Source: Hymenobacter sp. YIM 151858-1
Lineage (GTDB): Bacteria; Bacteroidota; Bacteroidia; Cytophagales; Hymenobacteraceae
DNA: 64,000 nt
Direction of reading: 5' to 3'
Assembly (NCBI RefSeq): GCF_025979705.1
Contig: NZ_CP110136.1
Location: 744,001 to 808,000 of the forward strand
The translations under genes and the position numbers were made by a program. Every line of letters begins with the position of its first letter. Position 1 is the stretch's first letter. Below the pieces are notes generated by a model. The model worked only from the letters and a program-made list of their open reading frames with translations. It ran no database searches and was not told the origin of the DNA. This document shows positions 62,656-64,000 of the stretch, piece after piece.

Positions 62656-63708
62656 ATGAAGCAGCAATCCTCCCGCAATACCTGGCTCAAAGCCGCCGGC
62701 ATAGGTGCCGCCGTAGCAGCCGCTGCCCTTTGGGCCAACCGCCGTGGTTCGTACGACTTGCGCGGCAAAGTAGTGCTGATAACCGGCGGTTCGCGCGGCC
62801 TCGGGCTGGTACTGGCCCGGCAGGCCGCCGCCGAGGGTGCCCGCGTGGCCATCTGCGCCCGCGACGCCGACGAGCTGGAGCGCGCCCGCAAGGAGCTGCT
62901 GGCCGAGGGCACCGAAATTCTGGCCCTGTCGCGCGACCTCAGCGACGAAACCGAGGTGCGCACCATGGTGGCCGAGGTGCGCAACGAGTTGGGCCCGATT
63001 GACGTGCTCATCAACAACGCCGGCATCATCACGGGCGGCCCGCTCGAGCACATGGATGTGCGCGACTACCAGGAGTCGATGGACATCCACTTCTGGGCCG
63101 CGCTGCACGCCATGTACGCCGTGCTACCCGACATGAAGCGCCGCCGCGAAGGGCGCATCATCAACATTGCCTCGGTAGGAGGCAAGGTAGCCGTGCCGCA
63201 CCTGGCGCCTTACTGCGCCAGCAAATTTGCTTTGGTGGGCTTGTCCGAAGGCTTTCGGGCCGAGCTACTGCGCTACGGCGTGTACGTTACTACCGTGTGC
63301 CCGGGCCTGATGCGCACCGGCTCGCCGCGCCAGGCCATCGTGAAAGGGCAGCACTTGCTGGAGTTTGCCTGGTTTATGGTGGCCGACTCGCTGCCGGTGC
63401 TTACCGTAAGCGCCCAGTACGCGGCCCGGCAAGTGTGGAATGCGGCCCGCCGCGGCGACGCGGAGCTGATTCTGGGGATGCCGGCCAAAATCATTTCGTT
63501 GCTCCACGGCATCGCGCCGGGCACCGTGGCCAACGTGCTCAGCATGGCCAACCGGAGCCTGCCCGGGCCCACCGGCGAGGCGGGCAACGAGCGGCGGCGC
63601 GGGTTCGAGAGCGAATCGGCTGTTACCAGATCGTGGCTGACCACGCTTACGCGCAAGGCCGAACGCGAAAACAACGAGCTGAACAACCACTCGCCGTATC
63701 CGGCTTAA
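62656..63708 (+). CDS. SDR-family oxidoreductase with membrane anchor
   Basis: A 350-residue short-chain dehydrogenase. A basic and hydrophobic N-terminus (about 10-26) may anchor it; TGGSRGLG (about 42-49) binds the cofactor, NNAGI is present, and catalytic Ser/Tyr/Lys lie in IASVGG and YCASK. A variable tail of about 90 residues (after the SDR core) contains IAPGT and a polar C-terminus. Substrate unknown. It is the last full gene before the edge. Confidence 0.88.
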   Translation: MKQQSSRNTWLKAAGIGAAVAAAALWANRRGSYDLRGKVVLITGGSRGLGLVLARQAAAEGARVAICARDADELERARKELLAEGTEILALSRDLSDETEVRTMVAEVRNELGPIDVLINNAGIITGGPLEHMDVRDYQESMDIHFWAALHAMYAVLPDMKRRREGRIINIASVGGKVAVPHLAPYCASKFALVGLSEGFRAELLRYGVYVTTVCPGLMRTGSPRQAIVKGQHLLEFAWFMVADSLPVLTVSAQYAARQVWNAARRGDAELILGMPAKIISLLHGIAPGTVANVLSMANRSLPGPTGEAGNERRRGFESESAVTRSWLTTLTRKAERENNELNNHSPYPA

Positions 63709-63788
63709 AGCGCAGATCCTTACCTCGTCAGAAAAAAAATAGCCGGGTTTGCGTTTCAATCCGGCAAAACTCTTCCCATCTTTACCCC

Positions 63789-63893
63789 ATGCACCTGTTC
63801 AGCCAGTCGTACTATTATTATTACCCGACCTGCCAGCCCTCCGGCTTCGGCAACGGTCGTGTATGTACGACGGCATCCGAGCAGACTTACTAA
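63789..63893 (+). CDS. Tyr-rich leader peptide (putative attenuator)
   Basis: A 34-residue open frame (starting MHLFSQS) with five consecutive tyrosine codons at residues 8-12, and one further Tyr as its last residue. It ends 25 bases before a perfect terminator that in turn precedes another gene start by 30 bases. This is the classical layout of ribosome-mediated transcription attenuation, which would tie the downstream gene to charged tyrosine tRNA. The downstream gene lies outside the window, so a tyrosine or aromatic amino acid role is inference. Confidence 0.7.
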   Translation: MHLFSQSYYYYYPTCQPSGFGNGRVCTTASEQTY

Positions 63894-63918
63894 CGTCTCC
63901 GCGAAACCGCTTCATACC

Positions 63919-63950
63919 GCCCCCGTCCGATAGCCGGACGGGGGCTTTTT
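63919..63950 (+). terminator. Rho-independent terminator (attenuator hairpin)
   Basis: Perfect 11-base arms GCCCCCGTCCG / CGGACGGGGGC, five-base loop, then T5-G-T5. It separates the Tyr-rich frame from the next gene. GACGG within the leader (about 63869-63873) could pair with CCGTC of the first arm as part of an antiterminator; this needs folding to confirm. Confidence 0.9.
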
Positions 63951-63980
63951 GTTTTTACCCCACTTCAAACCCTAGGTGCC

Positions 63981-64000
63981 ATGCAAGCCCCCCTCCAACA
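63981..64000 (+). CDS. Start of next gene (partial)
   Basis: An ATG at 63981 follows CCTAGGTGCC and opens a frame (MQAPLQ) running off the window. Too short to identify. Its place after the leader and terminator suggests it is the attenuated gene. Confidence 0.4.

Follow-up and report, generated by a model that had tools for sequence, protein, structure and literature searches.

The window analysed here, a 64,000-nucleotide stretch of the Hymenobacter sp. YIM 151858-1 genome (G000, C1:744001-808000), carries at its right-hand edge a short open reading frame (ORF), a hairpin and the beginning of a further gene, the coordinates of which are collected in Table 1. All of the parts named in the original prediction of a Tyr-responsive attenuator are present, namely the 34-codon frame with five tandem Tyr codons, the GC-rich hairpin (63919-63945, 11 pairs, 10 of them G-C) with its T-tract (TTTTT, 63946-63950), and the new ATG beyond it. 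The frame, 34 codons and a stop, translates as MHLFSQSYYYYYPTCQPSGFGNGRVCTTASEQTY, and upstream of it an SDR gene on the same strand ends at 63708.

Table 1. Features at the right-hand end of the window; positions are counted from its first base.
Feature	Position	Strand	Remarks
-7-like promoter box CATCTTTA	63777-63784	+	4/6 match to TAnnTTTG; 4 nt 5' of the leader ATG
Leader peptide ORF	63789-63893	+	Counterpart in 8/8 searched genus genomes
Regulatory run, five Tyr codons	63810-63824	+	Of all amino acids, Tyr is the most over-represented upstream of homologues, by a wide margin
Strand 1 of proposed anti-antiterminator, GTCGTAC	63806-63812	+	Overlaps the first Tyr codon; pairs with 63865-63871
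Strand 2, 5' strand of the antiterminator, GGTCGTGTATG	63855-63865	+	Pairs with 63913-63921
Partner of strand 1, GTACGAC	63865-63871	+	One base common to strand 2; alternative local hairpin with 63856-63861
Strand 3, CATACCGCC	63913-63921	+	Overlaps the first bases of the terminator
Predicted intrinsic terminator, 11-bp hairpin and U tract	63919-63950	+	Both-side changes between relatives
Start of phenylalanine 4-hydroxylase gene	63981-64000	+	247 aa; runs past the window to L002:2225

The 167-nt RNA from 63789 to 63955 folds at -68.5 kcal/mol, compared with a mean of -44.85 for shuffled sequences (z -6.50), and 0 of 200 shuffles folded as well. A Tyr run of this kind is by itself no less frequent than expected by chance: four consecutive TAY codons are found on the + strand of the 4.6-Mb genome at six places (7 matches with overlaps) and nowhere on the - strand, similar to the 6 and 2 matches of the reversed control pattern. 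It is therefore the context of the run that counts. The other five places, which sit in longer frames (L101, L102, L103) or in open stretches of 50 and 9 codons, were not read as leaders. No Rfam family reached its gathering score in 63600-64000. The sub-threshold match with the lowest E-value was sX11 (25.1 bits vs. the 70 needed), the sole amino acid leader was His_leader, on the minus strand (14.4 vs. 49 bits), and T-box was not among the nine sub-threshold matches to this region.

Extension of the sequence to the right revealed that the gene at 63981, of which the window holds the first 20 bases, scores 277.6 bits against TIGR01267 (curated cut-off 264.75), identifying it as a phenylalanine 4-monooxygenase, and 152.8 bits against Biopterin_H (cut-off 22.7). 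This enzyme converts Phe to Tyr, and the structural gene thus supplies the same amino acid as is encoded by the leader run. Rather than an unrelated gene with its own promoter, the hairpin is followed by the gene for a Tyr-making enzyme, and no TAnnTTTG-like box was seen by eye between the two. A terminator-like hairpin follows the hydroxylase stop, along with one on the other strand, and the attenuator therefore probably serves the hydroxylase gene alone. The nearest named relative of the enzyme within the best 80 of 578 loci is that of Solirubrum puertoriconensis (93% identity), adjoined by those of several Hymenobacter.

The hydroxylase (PAH1) is found in all eight genus genomes searched, the window's included, at 84-100% identity, and in each of the eight it is preceded by a leader ORF that encodes YYY to YYYYY, and by a terminator. 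The loss of the Tyr run in close relatives, which would have counted against the original prediction, is therefore not observed, with three to five Tyr codons being retained in 8/8 genomes. A second hydroxylase, PAH2, which is 42-48% identical, is also present in all eight.

Beyond the genus, ATG-started ORFs of 10-60 codons within 350 bases upstream were examined in the best 80 of 578 confirmed hydroxylase loci from named organisms, a sample that leans to near homologues. At least four Tyr in 10 codons were found at 32 of these 80 loci, compared with 5/1600 shuffles and 3/1096 control windows from the same loci, and with a shuffle expectation of 0.7 of 80. No other amino acid showed a comparable excess at the 80 loci, the next largest being Ala (8 loci, 2.1 expected) and His (6 loci, 0.2 expected), and Leu, at 12 loci, was about as frequent as expected (11.3). 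Apart from the Tyr run, the leader peptides of the different clades share little, with motifs such as YYAYAYYAP in other Hymenobacter, NTYYYYYQ in Marivirga, YHYHYYH in Roseivirga, YSYYSYYYRYY in Pontibacter and HSYYYHYF in Echinicola.

For the analyses of promoter and pairing, a set of 33 leaders was assembled from L003 and 32 of the 80 loci, of which 30 are among the 32 that passed the Tyr criterion and two (L023, L068) have three Tyr. Left out were L049, the leader of which is as that of L048, L085, where the Tyr-rich ORF is probably no leader, and six further weak cases (L053, L059, L065, L070, L074, L086) of the 39 candidates. The genus and named sets overlap, as L019, L021, L022 and L023 appear to be records of G005, G001, G006 and G003, respectively.

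Of 247 genomes sampled across the class, 61 had a hydroxylase match, which we divided by score and open frame into 30 short-form genes (approximately 250 residues) and 31 long-form or partial ones; upstream DNA was examined for the 29 other short-form genes and for 11 of the 31 long ones. Counting as a leader any ORF, whatever its start codon, with at least three Tyr in 10 codons and a terminator, 13/29 of the other short-form genes have a Tyr leader (14/30 with the window's own), including G158, the GTG start of which had been missed by the ATG-limited scan. None was found before the 11 long-form hydroxylases examined. The remaining short-form genes comprise 13 without a Tyr leader and three doubtful, Algoriphagus-like ones, of which G125 (L118; three Tyr and a terminator) satisfies the counting rule and was set aside as doubtful. 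The Algoriphagus ORF (MNPTPRTYVHHSY..) is short and conserved, but has few Tyr codons, and was not accepted as a Tyr leader. Loci of this type (L059, L062, L070, L073, L074, L077, L078, L112, L118) carry a conserved 17-codon upstream ORF of the MNPTPRTYVHHSYHLLR type, similarly poor in Tyr codons and in several cases followed by a terminator; upstream of L073, L074 and L077 lies the end of a gene that reads like a DAHP synthase.

A TAnnTTTG-like box matching at 5-6 of 6 positions was found no more than 30 nt upstream of the ATG in 28 of the 33 leaders, compared with 4/33 control windows. In 22/33 leaders the best-matching box is 4-6 nt 5' of the ATG, and two of these, the window's own included, match at 4 of 6 positions. 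In Flavobacterium psychrophilum, the TAnnTTTG box is placed at -12 to -5 and 5.5% of the mRNAs examined are counted as leaderless (PMC9723704). With the box so close to the ATG, the predicted transcript should therefore start at or next to the leader AUG, which would make the leader nearly leaderless itself.

Folding of the leader, as the original prediction had proposed, revealed competing structures. In an alignment of nine related leaders (A2, with row L008 shifted by one base in the terminator), the terminator pairs are formed in 94.9% of cells, with UA/CG and CG/GC exchanges, and the antiterminator, GGUCGUGUAUG with CAUAC(n)CGCC, is 100% paired and invariant, thus offering no covariation. 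The helix between strand 1 and its partner (1:2', GUCGUAC with GUACGAC) is 92.1% paired, with two pairs changed on both sides among the nine sequences. The covariation score was matched by 2/500 shuffles for the terminator and 1/500 for the 1:2' helix, whilst the number of pairs changed on both sides was matched by 284/500 and 368/500, respectively. In 98.1% of cells strand 2 can also pair locally, as a hairpin with 63866-63871, and the 1:2' helix is therefore not the sole candidate for hiding strand 2. Classical attenuators follow a logic of 1:2, 2:3 and 3:4 pairing, which the layout of the window's leader resembles. The antiterminator of other clades has a different sequence, namely GGAATCGG with CCGGTTCC in Marivirga, AGGATTAGG with CCTAATCC in Echinicola and CGCTACTGCC with GGCAGTGGCG in Pontibacter arcticus. 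A MAFFT alignment of Roseivirga, Marivirga and Fulvivirga leaders (A1) left the antiterminator strands out of register, and no pairs were counted from it.

Complementarity between the end of the ORF and the 5' side of the terminator was at or below the level of 10 in 200 shuffles in 21 of the 33 leaders, and own pairs had a mean duplex energy of -19.7 kcal/mol compared with -15.0 for swapped ones. A second set, of 12 of 13 new leaders (L114 was dropped, being nearly L113), gave the same level in 6/12. For the window's own leader, this test alone was not significant, with 34/200 shuffles scoring equally well. Among the 32 other leaders, 12 have an ORF end that pairs as well as or better than its own with its terminator side, so that the argument for this leader comes from its conservation and from its relatives.

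When full-length transcripts were folded to equilibrium, the terminator prevailed for most leaders and in most states, which mostly hid the switch, and transcripts were therefore ended before the 3' arm of the terminator for the folding with a ribosome at different positions. This was done for 29 leaders, leaving out four of Pontibacter type (L052, L075, L088, L090). The 5' arm of the terminator was paired upstream at 0.71 with the ribosome stalled on the Tyr run (best value among three positions), compared with 0.38 with the ribosome at the stop and 0.38 for free RNA; from stop to stall, 24/29 leaders rose by >0.1 and none fell by >0.1. With a single fixed stall in the middle of the run, the gain was +0.30 vs. 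+0.09 in shuffles, and exceeded 0.2 in 21/29 leaders vs. 86/348 shuffles, although at least half of the shuffles did equally well in six of the 29 (L027, L028, L045, L051, L068, L071). The window's leader paired at 0.50 when stalled mid-run, 0.16 at the stop and 0.19 when free, which was matched by 2/12 shuffles. An antiterminator that depends on the ribosome and excludes the terminator is thus supported by these models for the leader set as a whole; for the window's own leader, the pairing tests taken by themselves are no more than suggestive.

The sequence contains the parts of an attenuator, conserved and with predicted pairings that are mutually exclusive, and it is very probable (approximately 0.9) that a ribosome-mediated transcription attenuator couples the synthesis of phenylalanine hydroxylase to charged tRNA-Tyr. 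The leader-peptide attenuation put forward in the original prediction is supported by the sequence itself, by the Tyr-making target, by the relatives and by the competing structures. We infer that the leader ORF is translated, with stalling, termination, start site and response to Tyr as follows. RNA polymerase would begin at the AUG or right beside it, giving the first ribosome an almost leaderless RNA to load on. With ample Tyr-tRNA, the ribosome would pass the Tyr codons, strand 2 would be either masked or sequestered in the anti-antiterminator (1:2'), and transcription would end at the 63919-63945 hairpin. When Tyr-tRNA is scarce, the ribosome would halt on the Tyr run, covering strand 1 and freeing strand 2 (GGUCGUGUAUG) to pair with CAUACCGCC, which would remove the first bases of the terminator. 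The polymerase would then continue into the hydroxylase gene, and Tyr would be made from Phe.

It is improbable that the leader senses the general speed of translation, or the queuosine modification of the Tyr, His and Asn tRNAs, rather than the supply of Tyr. Queuosine has an early precursor in common with pterin, which is the hydroxylase cofactor, and the codon content of 40 pooled leaders leans in this direction, with an Asn+His to Lys+Gln ratio of 103:61 compared with 359:585 in the hydroxylase genes, as does the excess of His in the upstream ORFs (6/80 vs. 0.2). Asp, however, which is read by the same class of tRNA, is not enriched, leaders of the Hymenobacter type lack the Asn and His bias, and the pooled leaders are not independent of one another. 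His and Asn codons are moreover one base from Tyr codons, and decay of the Tyr run could account for them. At eight loci (L036, L038, L045, L047, L048, L071, L091, L137) His and Asn codons flank the Tyr run, and they may be either decayed Tyr codons or a property of the tRNAs that read NAY.

Control of termination or mRNA stability without translation, through a structured 5' UTR or a small RNA in which the ORF is fortuitous, would agree with the strong structure of the leader RNA and with the preservation of much of the ORF at the DNA level within the genus. We regard this as very improbable, given that the Tyr codons stay in frame and use both TAT (115) and TAC (58) across the 33 leaders, that the run varies in length by whole codons, and that the remainder of the peptide is unrelated between clades. 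A mere coincidence of a chance Tyr run with the terminator of the upstream gene is hardly credible: the SDR gene does lie on the same strand, and the TAY pattern is no rarer in the genome than its reverse, but the same arrangement recurs in different letters in many clades.

The coupling of hydroxylase synthesis to charged tRNA-Tyr may be considered alongside the supply of Tyr in these organisms. Prephenate dehydrogenase (PF02153, PF20463) was not found over cut-off in the window's genome (G000) or in G001, G004 and G005, the last of which has one match of 20.8 bits, below the cut-off, and prephenate dehydratase (PF00800) was not found in the same four. Hydroxylation is therefore the probable source of Tyr in the window's genome, and the four organisms probably need external Phe, from which Tyr is made. 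Animals make Tyr with the same enzyme, phenylalanine hydroxylase, and an animal-like economy, with Phe from outside and Tyr by hydroxylation, is suggested by these four genomes. Chorismate synthase and 4-hydroxyphenylpyruvate dioxygenase are present in 8/8 genus genomes; the other four have both prephenate genes, and the leader too. In the class-wide sample, prephenate dehydrogenase over cut-off is absent from 13/14 genomes with a Tyr leader vs. 7/16 with a short-form hydroxylase and no leader (Fisher p 0.007, uncorrected for kinship), where matches below the cut-off in G046, G143, G157, G167 and G181 were counted as absent. For Echinicola vietnamensis, mutant fitness led the GapMind authors to infer that one hydroxylase makes Tyr beside a dehydrogenase (PMC7311316). 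Tyr leaders were found in three other Echinicola records (L064, L097, L098), none of them from E. vietnamensis.

In the window's genome, PAH2 is preceded by a leader of another kind, here termed B-type (G000:C1:1708924-1709085, - strand), with relatives at L151-L166 and L186-L215. The B-type ORF has the pattern M..Q..KC....IRP...GVG with no aromatic run, most have a TAnnTTTG-like box (by eye) close 5' of the ATG, and a terminator is present. A model built from 16 leaders gave one match each below E 1e-8 in 67/150 genomes of the family, the 16 members of the model included, a count of the rows at that threshold, with many weaker matches extending to E 0.001. At each of the 30 best loci, the leader is followed by a frame bearing a loose hydroxylase motif. 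Complementarity of the antiterminator to the 5' arm of the terminator was at or below 10 of 200 shuffles in 14/16, and the antiterminator strand lies within the ORF, after a Pro codon. A Pro recurs at one position in 28/30 leaders. Sensing through a nascent peptide, as in TnaC, offers a model, and it is a tentative suggestion, more doubtful than not, that the two hydroxylases have two attenuators, one reading tRNA-Tyr and the B-type acting as a nascent-peptide or RNA sensor of, for example, free Phe or pterin. That PAH2 is plainly the catabolic copy was considered and is not claimed; its neighbours read, from translations only, as DAHP synthase-like and Trp synthase-like.

The mechanism proposed for PAH1 is classical ribosome-mediated attenuation. 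In the pheL-pheA, pheST and trpL systems of Escherichia coli, the position of the ribosome chooses between termination and read-through. There too, a leader ORF with codons for the regulated amino acid precedes the genes for making or charging it. The pheL, pheST and trpL leaders are covered in PMC11802643. Those systems concern Phe and Trp, whereas the present one concerns Tyr and a pterin-dependent hydroxylase, is probably nearly leaderless, and is found in Bacteroidota. The Tyr T-box controls Tyr genes through uncharged tRNA, which it binds directly, with no leader ORF. Control of tyrosine genes by T-boxes is mentioned in PMC1262725. The window's leader differs in having a leader ORF and no T-box match in Rfam. 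The AroR leader before aroF of Corynebacterium glutamicum, with Phe-Tyr-Phe, is likewise a leader peptide that attenuates an aromatic pathway operon, but the review that describes it has it responding to Phe, not Tyr (PMC11802643). Amino acid operons of F. psychrophilum, of the same phylum as the window, show signs of leader-peptide attenuation, and the passage that reports this names neither a Tyr leader nor a hydroxylase (PMC9723704). In the full-text literature searched, the scope of which leaves subscription journals mostly outside, no Tyr-specific leader-peptide attenuator, nor any before a hydroxylase, was recognised, and the Tyr specificity, the hydroxylase target and the nearly leaderless leader are provisionally new.

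The literature covered does not list Tyr as one of the amino acids that leader peptides sense, and many Bacteroidota seem to use such sensing. A Tyr attenuator supports a biosynthetic over a degradative role for the hydroxylase, which can be compared with the fitness data for E. vietnamensis (PMC7311316), and the Tyr leader could serve to mark biosynthetic as opposed to degradative hydroxylases in genomes.
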